From Acidobacteriota bacterium (GTDB taxonomy: Bacteria; Acidobacteriota; Terriglobia; Terriglobales; Acidobacteriaceae): a stretch of DNA of 14,993 bases. Of this stretch, positions 3,423 to 13,381 are shown one piece after another. The stretch lies in NCBI GenBank assembly GCA_021778875.1, contig JAJYBT010000007.1, forward strand, positions 1 through 14,993, in the 5' to 3' direction. The position numbers were made by a program, and so were the translations under genes. Below the pieces are notes generated by a model. That model did not search any database, was not told where the DNA came from, and saw only the letters and a program-made list of their open reading frames with translations. The first letter of the stretch is position 1; each line of letters opens with the position of its first letter.

Positions 3423-5093
3423 TTGAAAGCGATTGAAGCCAGGAAGGTGGAGCTGTTTGATACAAGCCTTCGGGACGGGTTACAGCAGCCAAACCTTGAA
3501 ATTTCAGTACCGGGGGCGGTAGGCCTTCTGCAGCGCATGTCCGCATTTGGCGTGCGGTATGCGGAGATTGGCTTTGCGGGCGCGAACCAGTTTGTGGGCG
3601 ACCTGACGAGCGCGCTTTCTCTGGTGGATACGGGCGCGATTCAACTGGCGCTGTTTGGCAGGACGCGCGGGCGCGGCACCAGGGTGCAGGACTGGCCGGA
3701 CGTGCAGTTCATTGTGCGCCACAAGGAGCGGATACCGGTTGCGGTGATTGTGGTGAAGTCGCGGCTGCTGGATGTGATGAAGTCGCTGGAGACCACGCCG
3801 GAAGAAAATCTGCTGATGGCCTACGAGACGGTCGAGTGCCTGCACGACAACGGGCTCAATGTGTTTGTGGATCTTGAGCACGCCATGGACGCGACGTGCG
3901 GGCGGCGAGAAAACGGCATTGAATGCGATGCGGATTTCAAGCTGCGCAGCCTGGAGTATTTTAACCAACTGACAGAGCAATGCGTGAACCAGAAAGTGAG
4001 CCGCATTGTGGTGTGCGACACGACGGGCGGCGCGAGCCCGGAAGAAGTGGCACAGGTGATTGGCGGGCTGACGCGCGCGTATCCGAATGCCGGGATAGGA
4101 TTTCATGGGCACAAGGATCGCGGGCTGGGCGTGGCGAACACGCGGGCGGCGGTGCTGGCAGGCGCAGTGCAGGTGCAGGGCACGCTGCTGGGCACGGGCG
4201 AACGCTGCGGCAACGTGAATCTGACGACGGTGATTGGCGGCATGCAACTGCGGGGCGAGGCGGAGTTTGTTCCGGCCGAGTCGCTGGCGGGGCTCACGAG
4301 CCTGGCGCATTCTGCTTACGCGGCCTTCAGTCTTGAGGTGCCGCACGGCGCTCCCATCGTGGGCCCGGGGGCGTTTGGGACGTGGGCCGGGATGCATGGC
4401 AGCAGCGAGCGCAAGAATCCGGGGGCGTATCTCTGGTGCGACCCGGCGCGGGTTGGCGCCAATCCGACGATCGGTGTGAACAGCCTTTCTGGCAGAGCGA
4501 ACGTCATTCTGCTGTCGGAGGCACTGGGCGTTGGGCTTGATTCCGTGCAGGCGCAGGCGCTGATGGACGCCAACCTGGCGATGATTGACGGCGGCGGCTT
4601 CACGGTGAGCGAGGTGTCGTTCAGGCTGGCCTGCATGAAGGTGCTGAAGACGCTGCACAATCGGTTCAGCGTAAAGGGATGGCGCGTTGTTGATGAGTCG
4701 GATGCGGCCGGGAACCGATGTGTGCAGGCGACGATGACGCTGCAGATCGGCGACCAGACGGTGACGACTACCGCCGAAGGCGCAGGCCCGGTGGATGCGC
4801 TGACCAAGGCGATGCGGCAGGAGTTGGAGAACTGGTATCCGGCACTGAAGCGGATGCGGCTGGGCACATTCAGCGTGACGGCGATTGACGTTTCTGCCCA
4901 CGACTCGGCGGCGCACGTGCGCGTTACGGTGAGCTTCAACGCCGAGAGTCACGAGCCCTGGATTACGGCTGGCGTGAGCAGCGACATGAACCAGGCGGCG
5001 CTGATGGCGATTGTGGATGGGTTTCACTACTGGCTGCAGCAGTGCTCGGATGAGGCCGAGGCTGCCGAGGCGCAGGTGGCGCAACAGGCGTAA
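3423..5093 (+). CDS. HMGL-like/LeuA-domain synthase, citramalate synthase (CimA)-like
   Basis: This probably condenses acetyl-CoA with a 2-oxo acid; by architecture it is closest to the citramalate/2-isopropylmalate synthase family. Of its 556 residues, about 8-275 form the HMGL TIM barrel: LFDTSLRDG (11-19, R17/D18), CDTTGG (198-203), GFHGHKDRG (226-234, H228/H230) and GTLLGTGERCGN (253-264). A linker follows with WAGMH (321-325), where H325 matches the family's catalytic His, and then a LeuA-type dimerisation/regulatory domain (about 434-540). Differences from the family: HGHKD where HxHND is usual, and FGTWAGMH where citramalate synthases have FAHKGGIH. The start is TTG, forced by an upstream in-frame stop, with GGGAG at 3409-3413. 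It is divergent from the carboxyltransferase operon. Alternatives are an HMG-CoA-lyase-like or novel aldol enzyme. The family is firm; the exact reaction is not. Confidence 0.85.
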   Translation: MKAIEARKVELFDTSLRDGLQQPNLEISVPGAVGLLQRMSAFGVRYAEIGFAGANQFVGDLTSALSLVDTGAIQLALFGRTRGRGTRVQDWPDVQFIVRHKERIPVAVIVVKSRLLDVMKSLETTPEENLLMAYETVECLHDNGLNVFVDLEHAMDATCGRRENGIECDADFKLRSLEYFNQLTEQCVNQKVSRIVVCDTTGGASPEEVAQVIGGLTRAYPNAGIGFHGHKDRGLGVANTRAAVLAGAVQVQGTLLGTGERCGNVNLTTVIGGMQLRGEAEFVPAESLAGLTSLAHSAYAAFSLEVPHGAPIVGPGAFGTWAGMHGSSERKNPGAYLWCDPARVGANPTIGVNSLSGRANVILLSEALGVGLDSVQAQALMDANLAMIDGGGFTVSEVSFRLACMKVLKTLHNRFSVKGWRVVDESDAAGNRCVQATMTLQIGDQTVTTTAEGAGPVDALTKAMRQELENWYPALKRMRLGTFSVTAIDVSAHDSAAHVRVTVSFNAESHEPWITAGVSSDMNQAALMAIVDGFHYWLQQCSDEAEAAEAQVAQQA

Positions 5094-5733: not shown

Positions 5734-7170
5734 ATGACGATGTTTGCACCTGCTGAGCGCGACGGCACAGCGCAACTGCCCCGGACGATGGGGTTCTGGG
5801 ATGTGCTGCTCTTCAATATCGCAACGGTGCTTGGGCCGCGCTGGATTGCGGCAGCAGGGCACAACGGAACATCGTCCATCAGCCTGTGGATCATTGCGGC
5901 AGTCTTTTTCTTTGTGCCCGGCGCGCTGGTCATCAACGAACTTTCGTCGCGCTTCCCAGTCGAGGGCGGGCTGTATGCGTGGTCGCGGGAAGCGTTTGGC
6001 GACTTTCACGGTTTTATTGCCGGGTGGACTTACTGGATTTACACGGTCTTCTATTTCCCGGGCCTGCTGTTGGCGAGCGCATCCATGGCCGCATACATCA
6101 TGGGCGGACGCGGCGCGGCGCTGGCGCAGAACCGGCCATTTCTGCTGACGGTTTCGCTTTCACTGCTGCTGGTCGCGGTGATCTTGAACATCGTCGGGCT
6201 GAACGTCGGCAAGTGGCTGCAGAATGCGGGCGGTGTGGGAACGTATGTGCCTCTGCTGATGCTGGCGGGCATTGCGGCGATTGTGAGCTGGCGTTATGGC
6301 TCGGTGACGCACTTCACCGTGAAGAACATGCTGCCAGCGTGGAACTGGGACACGGTCAACTTCTGGTCGCAGATTGCGTTTGCATTCACCGGGCTGGAGC
6401 TGGTGTCTGCCATGAGCGAAGAGGTGCGCGATCCGCGCCGCACGCTGCCGCGGGCAGTGTTTGGCGCCGGAGCGCTGATTGCGCTGATGTATATTGGCGG
6501 AACTTTTGCGGTCCTCTCGCTGACGCCCGCGGCGGGTCTCGATCCGCAGAGCGGGGTGTTTCACGCGATCACGGTTGGATCCATCGCGCTGCGTGTTGGC
6601 TTTCTGGGCATCCTTGCCGCTGTGCTGGTGACGGTGGGCAACGCGGGCGGCGTGGGCAGCACGGTGGCCGGCATTGCGCGCGTGCCGTTTGTGGTGGGCA
6701 TCGATCGCTATCTGCCTGCGGTGTTCGGGAAGATTCATCCTCGCTGGAAGACGCCGTATATTTCGATTCTCGTACAGGCCGCGGTGTCTGGAGCGATTCT
6801 GCTGGGAAGCCAGATCAACGAGACGACGCGCGGCGCGTATCAGTTCCTGATCGATGCGGCGATTATTCTCTACTTCATTCCATTTCTTTACATGTTTGCG
6901 GCGGTCATCAAGCTGGCGCGCCGCAAGGATCGCAGGGAGAACCAGCAGGCCGTGCTGGTGCCGGGCGGAGCGGCCGGTGTGTGGATCTGCGGCGGGCTGG
7001 GCTTTCTGGTCGTTCTGATGGGCATTCTTGTTTCGCTGGTGCCGCCGGGCGACTCGGCAGACAAGCTGGGCTTTGAGCTGAAGCTGGTTGGCGGCACAGT
7101 CGCATCGGTGCTGCTGGGGCTCATCCTTTACTGGCGTGGCGCGCGGGCGAAGAAGACGGAGCGGCAATAG
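5734..7170 (+). CDS. APC-superfamily amino-acid permease
   Basis: This integral inner-membrane transporter of the amino acid-polyamine-organocation superfamily has 478 residues and about 12 hydrophobic segments (roughly 22-42, 49-69, 92-122, 136-156, 170-186, 209-227, 242-263, 286-307, 342-359, 369-393, 415-436, 450-467). Family marks are FPVEGGLYAWSREAFGDFHGF (74-94), loops of the type seen in plant and bacterial APC permeases, and TGLELVSAMSEEVRDPRRTLP (219-239). The reading frame is open back to 5440, but that part overlaps thpR. I chose ATG 5734; ATG 5740 is also possible. A G-rich stretch at 5714-5719 is a rather distant SD. Its place beside an Lrp-type regulator and a Phe/Tyr degradation operon hints at aromatic amino-acid uptake, but no substrate-specific residue is recognised, so that is only an inference. 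Confidence 0.9.
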   Translation: MTMFAPAERDGTAQLPRTMGFWDVLLFNIATVLGPRWIAAAGHNGTSSISLWIIAAVFFFVPGALVINELSSRFPVEGGLYAWSREAFGDFHGFIAGWTYWIYTVFYFPGLLLASASMAAYIMGGRGAALAQNRPFLLTVSLSLLLVAVILNIVGLNVGKWLQNAGGVGTYVPLLMLAGIAAIVSWRYGSVTHFTVKNMLPAWNWDTVNFWSQIAFAFTGLELVSAMSEEVRDPRRTLPRAVFGAGALIALMYIGGTFAVLSLTPAAGLDPQSGVFHAITVGSIALRVGFLGILAAVLVTVGNAGGVGSTVAGIARVPFVVGIDRYLPAVFGKIHPRWKTPYISILVQAAVSGAILLGSQINETTRGAYQFLIDAAIILYFIPFLYMFAAVIKLARRKDRRENQQAVLVPGGAAGVWICGGLGFLVVLMGILVSLVPPGDSADKLGFELKLVGGTVASVLLGLILYWRGARAKKTERQ

Positions 7171-7195
7171 CGCCGAAAAAACCAAGTTCTGCGCC

Positions 7196-7280
7196 TGGTA
7201 CCCTGACCATGTGAATTTGTTGCTTCCCAGGTCTCAAAATCGAGGCCTGGGGCACTCAGAGTTCATGGTCATCAATACCA
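7196..7280. repeat. Nested inverted-repeat element between permease and regulator genes
   Basis: The inner hairpin pairs CCCAGGTCTC (7226-7235) with GAGGCCTGGG (7242-7251) around the loop AAAATC; there is one G-U pair. An outer interrupted inverted repeat surrounds it: TGGTA (7196-7200) plus TGACCATG (7204-7211) pairs with CATGGTCA (7264-7271) plus TACCA (7276-7280). The whole 85 nt could fold as a long stem with a central bulge. I recall TCTCAAAATCGAG-type hairpins followed by GGGGCAC as a repeated intergenic motif in Acidobacteriaceae, so this may be a copy of a mobile or REP-like element. Copy number was not testable. Confidence 0.65.
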
Positions 7281-7282
7281 AA

Positions 7283-7298
7283 TCCTGCGGTCGCAGGA
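7283..7298 (-). terminator. Hairpin directly after the Lrp-type gene
   Basis: TCCTGCG (7283-7289) and CGCAGGA (7292-7298) form a 7-bp stem with a minimal GT spacer, or a 6-bp stem with a GGTC loop. It sits immediately after the TAG of the leftward regulator gene (7301-7299). On that strand it is followed by TTTGG, a weak T-tract. It could end transcription from either convergent gene. Confidence 0.45.
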
Positions 7299-7829
7299 CT
7301 AGTCATAGCGGCCGAAGGCTTCGAGATGGTTTGCGTGCAGTTCGCGCCGCTCGACGGGCGAGGACAGAACTGTTGAGGTGGACGTGGCGCCCAGCGCGGA
7401 GAGCTTGTCAATGAGCGCTTCGAGGTGGCGGATGGAAACGACATTCGCTTCGATGACAAAAGACTCGTCGCCGGTGATGCGATGGCAGCGGCTTATCTCC
7501 GGGAGCTCCTTGATTGCGGTCACAGCGCGACTGACCTGCAAGTCTCCGCCGGGAATGGTGAGGCGCACCAGCACGCGAATGGGAAGGCCGAGTTTTGCGA
7601 GGTCGAGCGTGGCGTGATAGCCGGTGATGACGCCGGCTTCCTCCAGGCGGTGAACGCGCTCGGCGACGGCGGGCGTTGAGAGGCCAACCTTTCTGCCCAG
7701 TTCGGCGAACGACAGACGGGCGTTGTGCTGCAGGCATTCGAGAATCCGCCACGCAATCGCATCGAGCTCAACGACATTTGGAACCGTCTTATGGGTCACA
7801 GGCAAGCAATCCTTAAGCCGCTCTGCCAT
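7299..7829 (-). CDS. Lrp/AsnC-family transcriptional regulator
   Basis: This is a DNA-binding regulator that normally senses an amino acid. The 176 residues comprise an N-terminal winged HTH (about 21-75: LDAIAWRILECLQHNARLS, then FAELGRKVGLSTPAVAERV as helix-turn-helix) and a C-terminal RAM/ligand domain (about 85-160) with the typical RITGDESFVIEANV (117-130). I chose ATG 7829 because it starts shortly before the HTH and leaves the 7833-7849 palindrome just upstream as a plausible autoregulatory site. Upstream ATGs at 7844, 7859 and 7862 in the same frame would place the palindrome inside the gene. It is divergent from hpd, with 143 nt between the starts, so it is the obvious candidate regulator of the Phe/Tyr operon. 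The ligand (Phe, Tyr or homogentisate) is not inferable from sequence. Confidence 0.9.
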   Translation of the reverse strand: MAERLKDCLPVTHKTVPNVVELDAIAWRILECLQHNARLSFAELGRKVGLSTPAVAERVHRLEEAGVITGYHATLDLAKLGLPIRVLVRLTIPGGDLQVSRAVTAIKELPEISRCHRITGDESFVIEANVVSIRHLEALIDKLSALGATSTSTVLSSPVERRELHANHLEAFGRYD

Positions 7830-7832
7830 TAT

Positions 7833-7849
7833 GCCTAATCTCATTAGGC
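7833..7849. promoter_or_regulatory. Perfect 7-3-7 palindrome, probable Lrp-type operator
   Basis: GCCTAAT-CTC-ATTAGGC is a perfect inverted repeat of 7-bp arms around 3 nt, ending 3 nt before the regulator's start codon and about 30 nt upstream of a possible hpd -35 box. Its length and AT-rich centre suit a dimer of an Lrp/AsnC protein. On the regulator's side it would overlap the ribosome-binding area, fitting autorepression; on the hpd side its centre lies near -70, fitting activation. The function is inferred from position. Confidence 0.6.
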
Positions 7850-7878
7850 TGTGGCGCATCATTTTCATCGAACCACAC

Positions 7879-7907
7879 TTCACTGTGGCACGTGGTAAGC
7901 CTATCGT
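7879..7907 (+). promoter_or_regulatory. Possible sigma-70-type promoter of the hpd operon
   Basis: TTCACT (7879-7884) and TATCGT (7902-7907) are separated by 17 nt, each matching four of six consensus positions. This would give a leader of about 58 nt before the hpd ATG. Weak boxes would suit an activator-dependent promoter. Pattern match only. Confidence 0.3.
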
Positions 7908-7972
7908 ATCGCGTAGCCGGGAACACTTCCCTTCGTGTCCCCAATTGCGTTTCCGGCACAGGAGGTTCAGAC

Positions 7973-9109
7973 ATGAGCGCTTCCCTGCACTCTGCACCCA
8001 GTTCCCTTTTGTCACATGCGGTGGATTTTCTGCCGCTGAAGGGGACCGACCACGTGGAGTTCTACGTTGGCAATGCGCGCCAGGCCGCGTACTTTTACCG
8101 GGCGGCGTTTGGCATGCAACTCGTGGCTTATGCAGGACCCGAGACCGGCCAGCGCGATCGGGCCTCGTATGTGGTGCAGCAGGGCAAGATTCGTTTTGTT
8201 CTGACCACGTCGCTGCGCAGAAGCGATGCCATTGCGGGGCACGTGCATACGCATGGCGACGGCGTTCGCGCGGTGGCGCTGTGGGTGGACGACGCGCGCC
8301 GGGCATGGCGCGAGACAACGAGCCGCGGCGCGGTGAGCGCTGCCGAGCCGCGTGTGTTGCAGGACGAGCATGGCGAGGTTGTGCTGTCGAGCATCCGTGC
8401 GTACGGCGACACGATTCATACGTTTGTTGAGCGCGGCAACTATGCGGGCGCATTTCTGCCGGGCTTTCGCGCAGTTGAGCATGACACGGTGGCGCGACCG
8501 GTGGGCCTGCTGCACATTGATCACATGGTGGGCAATGTGGGCTGGCATGAGATGGACGAGTGGGTGAAGTTCTACGCCGACGTGATGGGATTCACGCTGT
8601 ATCAGCACTTTGATGACAAGGACATTTCGACCGAGTACTCGGCGCTGATGTCGAAGGTGATGGCCAATGGCAACGGATACGTGAAGTTCCCTATCAATGA
8701 GCCGGCGGAGGGCAAGCGGCGGTCGCAGGTGGAGGAATTTCTGGACTTCTATGCCGGCCCGGGAGTGCAACACATTGCGCTTGCGACCGATGACATTCTG
8801 CACACGGTGAGCCGGCTGCAGGAGCAGGGCGTGGAGTTTCTGCGCGTGCCGCACACCTATTACAGAGAGCTGCAGCAGCGTGTGGGGGCGATTGACGAGC
8901 CGGTTGACGAGCTGGAAAAGCTGGGCATCCTGGTGGACCGTGATGATGAAGGATACATGCTGCAGATTTTTACGCGGCCCGTGGAGGATCGGCCGACGCT
9001 GTTCTTTGAAATCATTCAGCGCAAGGGCAGCCGCAGCTTTGGCAAGGGAAACTTCAAGGCGCTGTTCGAAGCCATCGAACGCGAACAGCAGGCGCGCGGG
9101 AATCTGTAG
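7973..9109 (+). CDS. hpd: 4-hydroxyphenylpyruvate dioxygenase
   Basis: This cytoplasmic non-haem Fe(II) enzyme converts 4-hydroxyphenylpyruvate and O2 to homogentisate and CO2, the ring-shifting step of tyrosine degradation. It has 378 residues, a normal length, with two vicinal-oxygen-chelate domains (about 23-155 and 178-350). The 2-His-1-Glu iron ligands are visible: H184 in HIDHMVGNV, H267 in VQHIALATDD and E346 in LFFEIIQR. The C-terminal gating segment RKGSRSFGKGNFKALFEAIE (350-369) is intact. I chose ATG 7973 because AGGAGG at 7960-7965 lies 7 nt before it; the in-frame GTG at 7892 has no such site. It is the first gene of the operon, 20 nt before phhA, and divergent from the Lrp-type regulator. 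Confidence 0.98.
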   Translation: MSASLHSAPSSLLSHAVDFLPLKGTDHVEFYVGNARQAAYFYRAAFGMQLVAYAGPETGQRDRASYVVQQGKIRFVLTTSLRRSDAIAGHVHTHGDGVRAVALWVDDARRAWRETTSRGAVSAAEPRVLQDEHGEVVLSSIRAYGDTIHTFVERGNYAGAFLPGFRAVEHDTVARPVGLLHIDHMVGNVGWHEMDEWVKFYADVMGFTLYQHFDDKDISTEYSALMSKVMANGNGYVKFPINEPAEGKRRSQVEEFLDFYAGPGVQHIALATDDILHTVSRLQEQGVEFLRVPHTYYRELQQRVGAIDEPVDELEKLGILVDRDDEGYMLQIFTRPVEDRPTLFFEIIQRKGSRSFGKGNFKALFEAIEREQQARGNL

Positions 9110-9129
9110 CCGCGCACGTGGAGGATGCC

Positions 9130-9882
9130 ATGAGTACCGCAGTTCATTCAGCGGCCGCGCCGTACATTATTGAGCAGGACTACGCGGGCTATACGGAGGA
9201 GCAGCACGCTGTGTGGGCGGAGCTTGTGGGGCGCGTGCTGCCCGAGCTGCAACAACATGCGGCGCGGGAATATCTGGAGGGGCTGGAGATTATCGGACTG
9301 CGGCGGGAGCGGCTGCCGGAGCTGGCGGCGATCAGCGCGCGCCTCAAGCCGCGAACAGGCTGGAGTTCAACGCCGGTGAGCGGTTTTCTGCCGGCGCCCG
9401 CGTTTTTTGAGATGCTTGCGACGCGGCGCTTTCCGACGACGACGTGGCTGCGCAGCCGGGAGTCGCTCGAATACACGCCGGAGCCGGACATTTTTCACGA
9501 TGTGTTCGGGCATGTGCCGATGCATGCGCACGCGCTGTTTGCGGACTTCCTTGAGCACTACGGGCGCGTGTGCGCGTCGGTCACGGACGGTGGAGTGCTG
9601 GAAAAGCTGGGGCGTCTCTTCTGGTACACGGTGGAGTTTGGCGTGATACGGCAACGGGGCGAGATCAAGGTGTATGGCAGCGGACTGATCAGCTCACATG
9701 GCGAATGCCGGAATGTGATTGACGGCCATTGCGCGATTCGCGATTTCAGGCTGGATGAAGTGGTGAACACGCCGGTGAAGGTGGATGAGCTGCACAAGCT
9801 GCTGTTTGCCGTGAGCAGCTTTGACGAGATTTACGATGCGATGCACGAGGCGGAGCGGCGCGCGATGCGCAATGAACTGTGA
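9130..9882 (+). CDS. phhA: Phenylalanine 4-hydroxylase
   Basis: This pterin-dependent aromatic amino-acid hydroxylase makes tyrosine from phenylalanine, feeding the pathway encoded around it. Its 250 residues correspond to the bacterial catalytic-domain-only form, without an ACT regulatory domain. Iron ligands are seen as H123 and H128 in FHDVFGHVP and E169 in FWYTVEFGV. Other family marks are GWSSTPVSGFL (77-87) and GEIKVYGSGLISSHGE. I chose ATG 9130 because GGAGG at 9120-9124 is 5 nt upstream; an in-frame GTG at 9118 lies before that site. It begins 20 nt after hpd and ends 12 nt before hmgA, so it is within the operon. It needs a tetrahydropterin; no pterin-carbinolamine dehydratase (phhB) is in the window. 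Confidence 0.97.
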   Translation: MSTAVHSAAAPYIIEQDYAGYTEEQHAVWAELVGRVLPELQQHAAREYLEGLEIIGLRRERLPELAAISARLKPRTGWSSTPVSGFLPAPAFFEMLATRRFPTTTWLRSRESLEYTPEPDIFHDVFGHVPMHAHALFADFLEHYGRVCASVTDGGVLEKLGRLFWYTVEFGVIRQRGEIKVYGSGLISSHGECRNVIDGHCAIRDFRLDEVVNTPVKVDELHKLLFAVSSFDEIYDAMHEAERRAMRNEL

Positions 9883-9894
9883 AGAGGGGGATGG

Positions 9895-11214
9895 ATGGCT
9901 GCTGAGATTGCGTACCAGAGCGGGTTTGGCAACGAGTTTGCGATAGAGGCGGTGGCAGGCGGGTTGCCGGTGGGGCAGAATGCGCCGCAGAAACATGCTC
10001 TTGGCTTGTATACCGAGCAGTTCAGTGGCACACCGTTTACCACGCCGCGGGCGACGAATCGCCGCACCTGGACGTATCGGATTCGTCCGTCGGTCACGCA
10101 CCGCCCTTACGAAGAGATTTCAGCGCGGCTGATGCGCAGCGGGCCATTCACTGCGATTCCGACGACGCCGAATCAACTGCGCTGGGACCCGCTGCCGCTG
10201 CCCGCGGAGGCAACGGACTTTGTGGACGGCATCGTGACGCTGGGCGGCAATGGCGATCCGGCCATGCAGGCAGGCGTCGCGATTCACTTGTATGCCGCGA
10301 ACGCCTCGATGCACGACCGCTTCTTTTATAGCGCGGATGGGGAGTTTCTGATTGTTCCGCAAATGGGGACGCTGCGCTTTCATACTGAGCTGGGCATTCT
10401 TGATGCCGCTCCCGGCGAGATCTGCGTGATTCCGCGCGGCGTGAAGTTTCGCGTTGTGCTGAAGGAGAAGCATGCGCGCGGATATATCTGCGAGAACTAT
10501 GGGCTGCCGTTCCGGCTGCCGGAGCTTGGAGCCATTGGTGCGAATGGACTGGCGAATGCGCGCGACTTCAAGAGCCCGGTGGCGGCGTACGAGGATCGCG
10601 ATGGGGAGTTTCGTATCACCGCGAAGTTTCTGGGCAGGCTGTGGGATGCGGCGATTGACCACTCGCCGCTGGATGTGGTGGCGTGGCACGGCAACTACGC
10701 GCCGTACAAATATGACCTGGCGCTATTCAACTGCATCAATACAGTTTCGTTCGATCATCCGGACCCGTCGATTTACACCGTGCTGAGCTCTCCCTCGGCG
10801 ATAGCAGGCACGGCCAACTGCGACTTTGCAATATTTCCTCCGCGCTGGATGGTTGCCGAGCACACGTTCAGGCCGCCGTGGTTTCATCGCAACCTGATGA
10901 ACGAATTCATGGGCCTGGTGTTTGGCGCGTATGACGCGAAGGCGGAGGGCTTTGTGCCGGGCGGCGCGAGCCTGCACAACTGCATGGCCGGGCACGGCCC
11001 GGACGCAGAGACGTTTGAGCGCGCGAGCGAGGCGGAACTGAAGCCGCAGTATCTGGCCAACACGCTGGCGTTCATGTTTGAGACGCAACTTGTGGTGCGT
11101 CCCACGGAGTTTGCGATGGAAACCAAAATCCTGCAGCACGAGTACTTCGAATGCTGGCAGGGACTGAAGAAGCGCTTTGTGCCGCCGGCAGGCGCAAAGC
11201 GAGTACGCGGATGA
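9895..11214 (+). CDS. hmgA: Homogentisate 1,2-dioxygenase
   Basis: This enzyme opens the aromatic ring of homogentisate to give maleylacetoacetate. Its 439 residues are full length for the family. The N-terminus YQSGFGNEF is diagnostic. Residues aligning with the human enzyme are all present: the catalytic-acid/base His at 288 (FDHPDPS) and the iron ligands H331 and E337 ([13 protein letters not shown]) and H367 ([13 protein letters not shown]). The start at ATG 9895 follows a G-rich SD (GAGGGGG, 9884-9890). Its stop overlaps the next start as ATGA (11211-11214), so translation of the unknown gene is coupled to it. Confidence 0.98.
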
Positions 11215-12065
11215 ACGCAATCCGCAGTCTGCTGGCCGACCTGATTGACTATGCTGGCCTGTACCCGCCGGCAGCGCTGGACATGCGCTCAGCGGTGCGG
11301 AATTACGTGAGTTACAGCCAGGGCGAACATGCAGAGGCGCTGGGACGCTTTGTTGTGAACATGAATCGGCTGGGCGAGCTGCGCGAGGCGGCGGGTGCCT
11401 CACTTGGCGCGATGCGGTTGAGCGTGATTGCCGCGTCGGTGGACGACTGCTCATCGCTGACGCAATGCGTGCATGACGGGCTGCGGATTGATGCGGTTGA
11501 GTTCAAAACAGTTCGCCCATCCGAGATCAAACACCTGAGCGCATGTGTTCCCGCGGGCATAACGGCGTTCTTTGAAGTGCCGGCCGGCGGCGAAATGCGA
11601 GTGGCGCTTGAGGCAATTGCAGAAGCCGGCGCGTGCGCGAAGCTGCGCATGGGCGGCGTGGTTGCGGAGGCATTTCCAGGCACGCAGGCAGTGGCGGATG
11701 CGCTGCAGGCGCTTGCCGCGCGGCGTATTGCCTTCAAGGCGACGGCAGGGCTGCATCATGCGATTCGCTCGCGTCACGCGTTTACGCTGGAGCCGGGCGG
11801 GGCCGCGGGAATGATGCATGGGTTTGTGAATCTGTGCTGCGCGGCGGCGCTGATACACTGCGGCGGAGAGGCCGACGAAGCGCGGCGCGTGCTGGACGAA
11901 GAAGACGCCGGTGCGTGGCGCGTTACCGCGGATGGGATTGGCTGGCGCAGCCTGGAGTGGAGCGCGGAAGAGCTGCGCGCGGTGCGCCGCGAGTTCTTCC
12001 TCAGTTTCGGGTCCTGTTCGTTTGAAGAGCCGATGCACGATCTGGAGGCGCTGGGATGGCTGTGA
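11211..12065 (+). CDS. Unknown protein, probable barrel enzyme, inside the Phe/Tyr operon
   Basis: I do not recognise a characterised family. The 284 residues have no signal peptide or membrane segment and show alternating strand/helix stretches like a beta/alpha barrel. Charged residues sit at the ends of predicted strands: AVEFKT (95-100), FFEVP (120-124), AKLRMGG (143-149) and FKATAGLHH (175-183). The C-terminus has HGFVNL (203-208), FGSCSFEEP (266-274) and DLEALGWL (277-284). E97, K99, E122, K144, R146, K176, H182 and H183 look like an active-site set; C269 is a possible thiol. The start overlaps the hmgA stop (ATGA) and its end overlaps the fahA start by 10 nt. In the pathway the step between HmgA and FahA is maleylacetoacetate isomerisation, usually by the glutathione-dependent MaiA, which is absent here. 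A substitute isomerase is the leading inference; an accessory role is possible. It is not GST-like. Confidence 0.9.
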
Positions 12066-13381
12066 GCAGAAAAAGCTGGGTTGCCTCGGCCAACGATCCC
12101 GCGTCTGACTTTCCCATTCAGAATCTGCCCTACGGTGTGTTTCTCTATCAAGAAGAGAGGCGCATTGGCGTTGCGATTGGCGACCGGATTCTGGATCTGC
12201 GTGCGTGCGCGCGGGCGGGTTTGCTGGCGGGGCTGGCGGAAGAGATTGTCGCGGCGTGCGGAGCCGAGTTGCTGAATCCGCTGATGTCTCTTGGGCGCGG
12301 CGCGTGGCATGCGCTGCGCATGCGGATCACTGAACTGCTGGACGCGGAAGAGGCAAGCAAGCCGATGCAGGGCCGGGTGGAGCCGCTGCTGACGCCGATG
12401 CGCGAGGCGGTGATGCAGCTTCCGGCGCAGATTGGCGACTATACGGATTTCTACGCTTCGATTCATCACGCCACGCGGGTTGGCAGGCTGTTCCGCCCGG
12501 ACAACCCGCTGCTGCCGAATTACAAGTATGTTCCCATCGGCTATCACGGCCGCGCGTCATCGATTGCGGTGAGCGGTGAGGAGATTCGCAGGCCGTGCGG
12601 GCAGACAAAACCGCCAGCGGGCGAACCGATTTTTGGACCGACAAGATCTCTGGACTACGAGCTGGAGGTTGGCGTGTTTGTGGGCCCGGGCAATGCGCTG
12701 GGGCGGAGCATTCCGATTGCGGAAGCCGAGGAGCACGTCTTTGGTCTGTGCCTGGTGAATGACTGGTCAGCGCGCGACGTGCAGGCATGGGAATACCAGC
12801 CGCTGGGCCCATTTTTGGCGAAGAATTTTGCTACGACGATTTCGCCCTGGATTGTGCCGATGGAGGCGCTGGCTCCCTACCGGGTGCGCGGGCCGGAACG
12901 CGCGACGAACGACCCGGCGCCGCTGGCGCACCTGCGCTCGCCGTCAGCGGAGACGGATGGCATCGACCTGACGCTGCAGGTTTATCTCGAATCGCAGCAG
13001 ATGCGGCAGACGGGCGCGGCGCCGATGCTGCTGAGCACGGGCAATCTGCGCGAGCTGTACTGGAGCATCGTGCAACTGGTGACGCACCACGCAAGCAACG
13101 GGTGCAATTTGCGGCCCGGCGATCTGCTGGCCACGGGAACCGTCTCCGGCGCCGCGACTGGATCAGAGGGTTGCCTGCTGGAGAAGACGCGCGAGCAGGG
13201 GCCGATTGCGCTGCCCGGCGGGGAGCAGCGCACCTTCCTCGAAGACGGCGACCGGGTGACGTTCCGCGCTCATGCGCAGAGGGCCGGGATGCCGCGAATC
13301 GGATTTGGCGAGTGCGCGGGAGTGGTTGCCGCAGCCGGACCGGAACGGCAGGAAAGCTCGAGATCAGCCTCGGCTTTCTAG
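12056..13381 (+). CDS. fahA: Fumarylacetoacetase
   Basis: This is the last enzyme of tyrosine degradation, hydrolysing fumarylacetoacetate to fumarate and acetoacetate. The 441 residues have an N-terminal SH3-like domain (about 25-125) and the FAH barrel. Metal ligands aligning with the human enzyme are D131 (DYTDFY), E202 and E204 (YELEVGVF) and D236 (NDWSARD). The catalytic H138 (IHHATRVG) and K256 (LGPFLAKNF) are also present, as is [15 protein letters not shown] near the end. Start ATG 12056 has GGAGG at 12044-12048, 7 nt before it, inside the previous gene. It overlaps that gene by 10 nt. The C-terminus runs about 20 residues beyond the human one. It is the last gene of the operon, and its stop shares CTAG with the convergent CBS gene. 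Confidence 0.98.

Follow-up and report, generated by a model that had tools for sequence, protein, structure and literature searches.

The breakdown of phenylalanine and tyrosine via homogentisate is a textbook pathway, and the usual account makes its maleylacetoacetate isomerase dependent on glutathione. In this enzyme, MaiA, the thiol adds to the double bond, rotation follows, and the thiol is then eliminated. Glutathione-independent isomerisation of maleylpyruvate has reportedly been seen in Bacillus megaterium, and animals without the isomerase are said to rely on a non-enzymatic bypass. Bacteria that seemingly lack glutathione also run the homogentisate pathway. In the excerpted texts of two reports on Bacillus, the maleylacetoacetate isomerase gene was not identifiable, either where hppD, hmgB and hmgA share one operon (PMC4457819) or in B. 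thuringiensis (PMC6193087). The operon given for the Bacillus cereus group in the latter excerpt reads hppD-fahA-hmgA, with the place of the gene described below empty. Similarly, the excerpted proteome study of Rhodococcus globerulus lists HmgA and HmgB and names no isomerase (PMC11889516). The sister pathway, according to the excerpt of another report, uses a mycothiol-dependent maleylpyruvate isomerase (PMC3937715). Among the matches listed in the open-licence PubMed Central literature, represented by extracts, no gene is named for a glutathione-independent maleylacetoacetate isomerase. Here we describe a candidate, called X, that would fill this published gap.

The operon and the gene between hmgA and fahA

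The window (the whole stretch of DNA analysed, 14,993 nt) contains, at 7973-13381, a phenylalanine/tyrosine operon comprising hppD, phenylalanine 4-monooxygenase, hmgA, X and fahA. The features are as follows.

7299..7850 (far end approximate), minus strand: divergent Lrp/AsnC-type regulator; the Lrp-type matches cover approximately residues 224-370 of the listed ORF
7973..9109, plus strand: hppD, 4-hydroxyphenylpyruvate dioxygenase (TIGR01263, 449.4 bits)
9118..9882, plus strand: phenylalanine 4-monooxygenase, PAH (NF008877, 292.5 bits, cut-off 247)
9895..11214, plus strand: hmgA, homogentisate 1,2-dioxygenase (TIGR01015, 687.7 bits), whose product is maleylacetoacetate
11211..12065, plus strand: X, 284 aa with a predicted TIM-barrel fold, candidate maleylacetoacetate isomerase that would not need glutathione
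12056..13381, plus strand: fahA, fumarylacetoacetase (TIGR01266, 520.3 bits), whose substrate is fumarylacetoacetate

Each of the four named operon enzymes exceeds its NCBIfam cut-off, which agrees with the initial annotation of the neighbours of X as phenylalanine/tyrosine pathway enzymes. PAH also matches TIGR01267, at 230.3 bits, under that model's cut-off. The hppD start is placed at the ATG at 7973, preceded by AGGAGG (read from the sequence); the longest ORF begins at 7892. The regulator ORF as listed extends to 8453, and its N-terminal extension is probably spurious. Upstream of the operon lies a citramalate synthase-like protein (3423-5093, plus strand; TIGR00977, 292 bits, cut-off 450). 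Two further frames are found on the minus strand, one acyl-CoA dehydrogenase-like as judged by eye (2-1330, running off the window edge) and one resembling a methylmalonyl-CoA decarboxylase carboxyltransferase subunit (1176-2897; 306 bits, below cut-off). These two probably represent a branched-chain or propionate route, separate from the tyrosine operon.

The X reading frame runs from the ATG at 11211 to the TGA at 12063-12065. Its start is overlapped by 4 nt by the end of hmgA (11214), and fahA begins (12056) 10 nt inside X. A longer in-frame start at 11151 would give 304 aa, and conservation sets in after the 11211 start. X matches nothing in Pfam (E<=10), NCBIfam (E<=0.01) or the PDB sequences (E<=10), and a PDB search with a 35-row X profile returned two chance matches only (E 0.17 and 0.44). 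When 35 X members drawn from four phyla were compared with Pfam at E<=1, any given model matched at most two of them, and NCBIfam yields a single match, to one member, at E 0.0097. The reading frame, the two overlaps and these negative searches together bear out the original description of an unrecognised 284-residue protein between HmgA and FahA, coupled on both sides.

The X family is large. At least 4,195 relatives score at E<=0.001, a lower bound because only 7,997 candidates from the protein database were scored, and a profile built from 35 sequences finds 5,651 at E<=1e-5. They belong to the Acidobacteriota, Actinomycetota and Bacillota, plus one cyanobacterium. Named sources among the best 120 per search include Acidobacteria, Blastocatellia, a Gemmatimonadaceae MAG, Tsukamurella, Nocardia, Amycolatopsis, Saccharopolyspora and Streptomyces. 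Among the matches listed, NCBI names for these relatives are hypothetical or uncharacterised protein, and UniRef labels a few as aldolase or HMG-CoA lyase, the aldolases including some actinobacterial members.

Linkage of X to the homogentisate pathway

We searched 247 acidobacterial genomes, relatives of the window source, for X, FahA, HmgA and MaiA. The nearest, G001, has 25% of sampled words in common with the window, and its X is split into two pieces on two contigs. X is present in 47 of the 247 genomes, FahA (TIGR01266) is above cut-off in 56, and HmgA (TIGR01015) in 42. FahA is found in 46/47 X-positive versus 10/200 X-negative genomes (both genes, 46; X only, one, G194; FahA only, 10; neither, 190), with a Fisher P value of 7e-39 that is nominal because the genomes share ancestry. 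HmgA falls short of its cut-off in 22 X-positive genomes, 20 of which have a weaker match.

Of the 47 X-positive genomes, 36 have fahA no more than 1 kb from X, and 40 have fahA or hmgA no more than 3 kb away. Six acidobacterial contigs are named; the five that cover the whole region all keep the order HmgA-X-FahA, and the other, L005, begins inside X and continues with FahA. Given this, the arrangement is not due to chance. The seven genomes not counted among these 40 are G097, G124 and G166 (one genus), G234, G194, G174 and G205; contig limits enter in three of them, with X on a 3-kb contig in G194, at a contig end in G174 and 1.3 kb from the end in G205. In G124 (L056), fahA is ~300 kb away, and the neighbours of X are a thiolase, a 3-hydroxyacyl-CoA dehydrogenase and a protein resembling aldehyde dehydrogenases; X is likewise far from fahA in G166 and G097. 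The G124 context is possibly a second use of the X family or a rearranged pathway.

We extended the analysis to other phyla by scanning 72,556 plasmid records for X and FahA with tblastn. FahA was found on 119 records and X on 24 (11 Streptomyces, 6 Priestia, 2 Pseudonocardia, 2 Rhodococcus, 1 Tsukamurella, 1 Nonomuraea and 1 Kovacikia, the cyanobacterial carrier). By coordinates, fahA adjoins X on the same strand in all 24, several of which are near-copies. Ten plasmid contexts were fetched, of which eight were annotated; Kovacikia and Nonomuraea were read via tblastn. The gene order is hppD-X-fahA-hisC-hmgA in Priestia megaterium, hppD-hmgA-X-fahA in Tsukamurella tyrosinosolvens, hmgA-X-fahA in Pseudonocardia, and hmgA-X-fahA-CoA transferase in Streptomyces sp. 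Alt3. On the two Rhodococcus plasmids a cupin-domain protein precedes X-fahA, and on two Streptomyces plasmids X-fahA occurs with hmgA not adjoining. Homologues lying mostly outside tyrosine operons, which the initial annotation had named as telling against its proposal, are thus not what the 40 genomes and 24 plasmid records show.

Two other associations were considered for the plasmids and rejected. No gentisate gene is annotated in any of the eight annotated contexts, which leaves a gentisate (maleylpyruvate) role for X without a partner there. A mycothiol-type isomerase partner near X was set aside as well, since MDMPI_N proteins occur in two of the eight contexts and in none of the other six. 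Both are Streptomyces plasmids, with the MDMPI_N protein upstream of X-fahA (L040, 1985-2641, ~3.3 kb; L048, 4346-5002, ~1 kb). At these two loci, where hmgA does not adjoin, the ring-cleavage substrate may be different.

A MaiA query matched 197 plasmid records; ten genera are named in that listing, which we take to be proteobacterial (39 further genera are not named). The best 60 of the 197 include no record with X. In the plasmid records common to the FahA and MaiA matches listed, MaiA directly adjoins fahA in 10/10. Elsewhere, X fills this slot of MaiA beside fahA.

This placement bears on the idea that X acts downstream, on acetoacetate (e.g. as a Schiff-base decarboxylase), or as an aldolase of an adjoining route. 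Such a role would suit the aldolase-like barrel with its two invariant lysines (see below), the aldolase labels of some actinobacterial members in UniRef, and the thiolase and 3-hydroxyacyl-CoA dehydrogenase next to X in G124. However, CoA-transferases, which could take up acetoacetate, are encoded beside fahA in Streptomyces sp. Alt3 and less than 4 kb from X in R. aetherivorans, and X sits beside fahA where MaiA is found in other records. We regard a downstream role as highly unlikely.

MaiA, glutathione and pathways without X

MaiA (TIGR01262) is above cut-off in only one of the 247 acidobacterial genomes, G199, which has glutathione synthetase above cut-off and no FahA match. It is above cut-off in none of the 47 X-positive genomes, five of which (G033, G070, G083, G153 and G224) show weak GST-type matches that do not reach it. 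The initial annotation had named a maiA homologue at another place in the genome as evidence that would count against X, and in these relatives none exceeds the TIGR01262 cut-off. Glutathione synthetase (gshB, TIGR01380) is above cut-off in one X-positive genome (G153), with gshB-like matches below cut-off in nine more, which fits the earlier suggestion of a glutathione-poor host. In G153 (L057), the cluster reads hppD-hmgA-PAH-X, glutathione synthetase is present, and fahA is on another contig.

X could instead handle maleylacetoacetate in another way, as a hydrolase yielding maleate and acetoacetate or in the repair of side products, e.g. succinylacetoacetate. Maleylacetoacetate hydrolase activity is reported in some Bacillus, with the gene unnamed, in the excerpt of PMC4457819 (citing Crawford 1976), and operons lacking X exist, as expected for an accessory enzyme. 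Yet a hydrolase would render FahA superfluous, and FahA is present in all but one of the X-positive genomes, in 36 of them within 1 kb of X. Moreover, because no MaiA is above cut-off in X-positive genomes, either role for X would leave the isomerase step empty. We therefore regard this explanation as unlikely.

X might also be an isomerase that needs another low-molecular-weight thiol (mycothiol or bacillithiol), like the mycothiol-dependent maleylpyruvate isomerase described in Actinobacteria in the excerpt of PMC3937715. The occurrence of X in Actinomycetota and Bacillota is in keeping with this. However, the same near-invariant residues are found across groups that presumably differ in their thiols, including G153, with its gshB, and the cyanobacterium. 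A near-invariant cysteine is, furthermore, already at the catalytic face. A requirement for an external thiol thus seems highly unlikely, and we return to X as an isomerase that needs none.

Glutathione and GST-type proteins go together in a different group. In one genus, eight genomes carry HmgA above cut-off and neither FahA nor X, and all eight have glutathione synthetase. Seven of them show, at 171-174 bp from hmgA, a GST-like match that falls short of the MaiA cut-off, and one of these was confirmed as GST_N/GST_C; the eighth, G109, shows no GST-like match by hmgA. At L085, from a genus with glutathione synthetase and no FahA above cut-off, a GST-family gene (6028-6717) stands beside hmgA (6829-8115). 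Such a GST-hmgA pair is perhaps a third solution to the isomerase step, with a further hydrolase. The GST solution accompanies glutathione, and X occurs mostly in its absence. As only one genus is involved, the association of GST with glutathione amounts to one or a few evolutionary events.

Among the 56 acidobacterial genomes with FahA, ten carry neither X nor gshB above cut-off and show no MaiA match at E<=0.001; eight of the ten fall in the family of G001. In G037, G041, G140 and G196 (L049, L052, L050 and L051), only 24-87 bp separate hmgA from fahA, too little to accommodate X. For the remaining genomes, hmgA and fahA are far apart or on different contigs in five, and an HmgA match is absent in one. 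Seven loci from six of the X-less genomes (L049-L054 and L062) were searched in six frames with an X profile of 122 rows and gave no match, the other four genomes being covered by the genome-wide X search. Similarly, Nocardia farcinica plasmid 2 has hmgA-fahA with neither X nor MaiA within 17 kb. Nine ORFs from X-less or X-distant loci were scanned for a substitute. Five have Pfam matches (two outer-membrane barrels, an AcrB-type transporter, a CarboxypepD_reg protein and a 3-hydroxyacyl-CoA dehydrogenase), and none of these five is a plausible isomerase; the other four match no Pfam model. It follows from the ten genomes that the isomerase step is also met in some other way and, as none has gshB above cut-off, that the absence of glutathione alone does not make X necessary. 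In X-less organisms the step can proceed spontaneously, fall to a different protein, or be bypassed. These genomes and the Nocardia plasmid indicate that X is common but not obligatory.

Collectively, the position of X, its overlaps with both neighbours, its co-occurrence with FahA and the absence of MaiA support the central proposal of the initial annotation. On this genomic evidence, we consider it probable that X is a maleylacetoacetate isomerase, independent of glutathione and not homologous to MaiA. If so, this family, whose thousands of members are mostly annotated as 'hypothetical', would close the gap in the Acidobacteriota, in many Actinomycetota and in Priestia, and pathway annotation would be corrected in many genomes. 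A thiol-free isomerase would also become available for studying covalent cis-trans catalysis.

Predicted fold, candidate mechanism and comparison with known enzymes

The AlphaFold2 model of X (pLDDT 96) is a TIM barrel, as the initial description of a barrel-like protein had anticipated. Deoxyribose-phosphate aldolase (DERA) is its closest structural neighbour by VIA-align. Foldseek gives best E values of 9e-4 (model 1) and 1.3e-4 (model 2), and its matches also include IMP dehydrogenase, transaldolase and other proteins; for a predicted TIM barrel this alone would be weak, and the apparent preference for DERA comes from VIA-align. The reported absence of GST/thioredoxin-fold marks also holds, in that X has no Pfam match, no GST match is seen in the 35 members, and the model is a TIM barrel.

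To describe conservation we used 391 rows, many closely related, consisting of 358 database proteins (the window X, P0001, included), drawn from the best 120 of each search, and 33 others. E122, K144, R146, K176, H182 and N207 are present in 391/391 sequences, E97 and C269 in 390, and D13, T178 and R186 in 389. Of eight charged strand-end residues singled out earlier, six (E97, E122, K144, R146, K176 and H182) are near-invariant, whereas K99 and H183 are variable; in 120 sequences of the actinobacterial branch, position 99 is mostly P or A, and position 183 is G in 56. The motif FGSCSFEEP, described as conserved-looking, is so in part: G-S-C-S and P are kept in at least 97% of sequences, and the remaining positions are not. 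In the model, E97 is on strand 93-98, K144 on 142-146 and K176 on 175-178, and C269 is at the end of the last strand, at the barrel mouth on the catalytic face. Eleven of 13 polar positions conserved at >=97% fall in the zone at the C-terminal ends of the eight strands (64 of 284 residues), with a hypergeometric P value of 2e-6 that is descriptive because the pattern was noticed before the zone was defined. D13, E97, E122, K144, R146, K176, T178, H182, R186, N207 and C269 are candidate active-site residues.

The near-invariant cysteine at the barrel mouth and the aldolase-like lysine pair lead us to propose an iminium mechanism with an internal thiol, by which X would convert maleylacetoacetate from HmgA to fumarylacetoacetate for FahA. 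K144, on strand 6, would form an iminium with the C4 ketone, and K176, on strand 7, would tune its charge, as in DERA. The thiolate of C269 would add to C2, as the internal counterpart of the glutathione thiol in MaiA. The C2-C3 bond, single in the enamine, could then rotate; departure of the thiolate would leave the trans double bond, and hydrolysis would release fumarylacetoacetate. E97 and E122 might serve as acid/base, with R146, R186, H182 and N207 holding the two carboxylates. The lysine and cysteine parts are separable, and either alone could suffice. One caveat is that TIM barrels are alike in general, so that the Schiff-base step is weakly supported. Structure 7p76, by its title, is a re-engineered DERA that catalyses Michael additions, and since such variants exist, chemistry of this kind on the X barrel is plausible.

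With MaiA, a zeta-class GST (TIGR01262), X shares the slot beside fahA and the inferred reaction, and possibly the chemistry of thiol addition. It differs in showing no sequence match, in being a TIM barrel rather than a GST, in length (284 residues versus a 211-position model), and in occurring in genomes that nearly all lack glutathione synthetase above cut-off.

DERA (TIGR00126), a class I aldolase, is a Schiff-base enzyme. The lysine that forms the Schiff base stands on strand 6, another lysine on strand 7 and an acidic residue on strand 4. The X model is also a (beta/alpha)8 barrel, and K144, K176 and E97 take these places by strand order, coordinates not being superposed. In 17 acidobacterial DERAs the invariant set includes D87, E126, K151 and K180 and the motifs KTSTG and KA[SA]GG; in order, these residues correspond to E97, E122, K144 and K176 of X, whose motifs are K.R[TM]G and KATAG. 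By sequence, X has no NCBIfam or Pfam DERA match and an hhalign probability of 0.3%; the profile comparison was not significant and a forced global comparison gave nothing, so that homology is not detectable. The strand 6-7 segment gave a P value of 0.012, which is not counted as homology, the segment having been chosen after the fact. X is further unlike DERA in its extra hairpins around 187-202 and 236-251, its near-invariant C269 and its context away from nucleosides.

The mycothiol-dependent maleylpyruvate isomerase (MDMPI) is a parallel in that it replaces the glutathione-dependent cis-trans isomerase of the sister pathway in bacteria that have no glutathione (PMC3937715). X belongs to a different family, the sole MDMPI match among the 35 members being to MDMPI_C at E 0.18. 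A precedent for covalent catalysis by a cysteine would be maleate cis-trans isomerase (Asp/Glu racemase superfamily), in which, with no cofactor, a cysteine adds to the substrate, the bond rotates and the cysteine is eliminated again. Its fold differs from that of X, and no Pfam match to this superfamily is listed among the 35 members.

We offer tentatively, as a possibility somewhat less probable than its negation, the fuller reading in which X founds a family of cofactor-free cis-trans isomerases on a class I aldolase barrel, using a K144/K176 Schiff base with C269 as internal nucleophile, that replaces MaiA in several phyla, mostly in glutathione-free organisms, and provides a long-missing gene for homogentisate breakdown independent of glutathione. 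Set beside these known systems, X most likely represents a previously undescribed enzyme family that serves an established step; the pathway itself is of a known kind.
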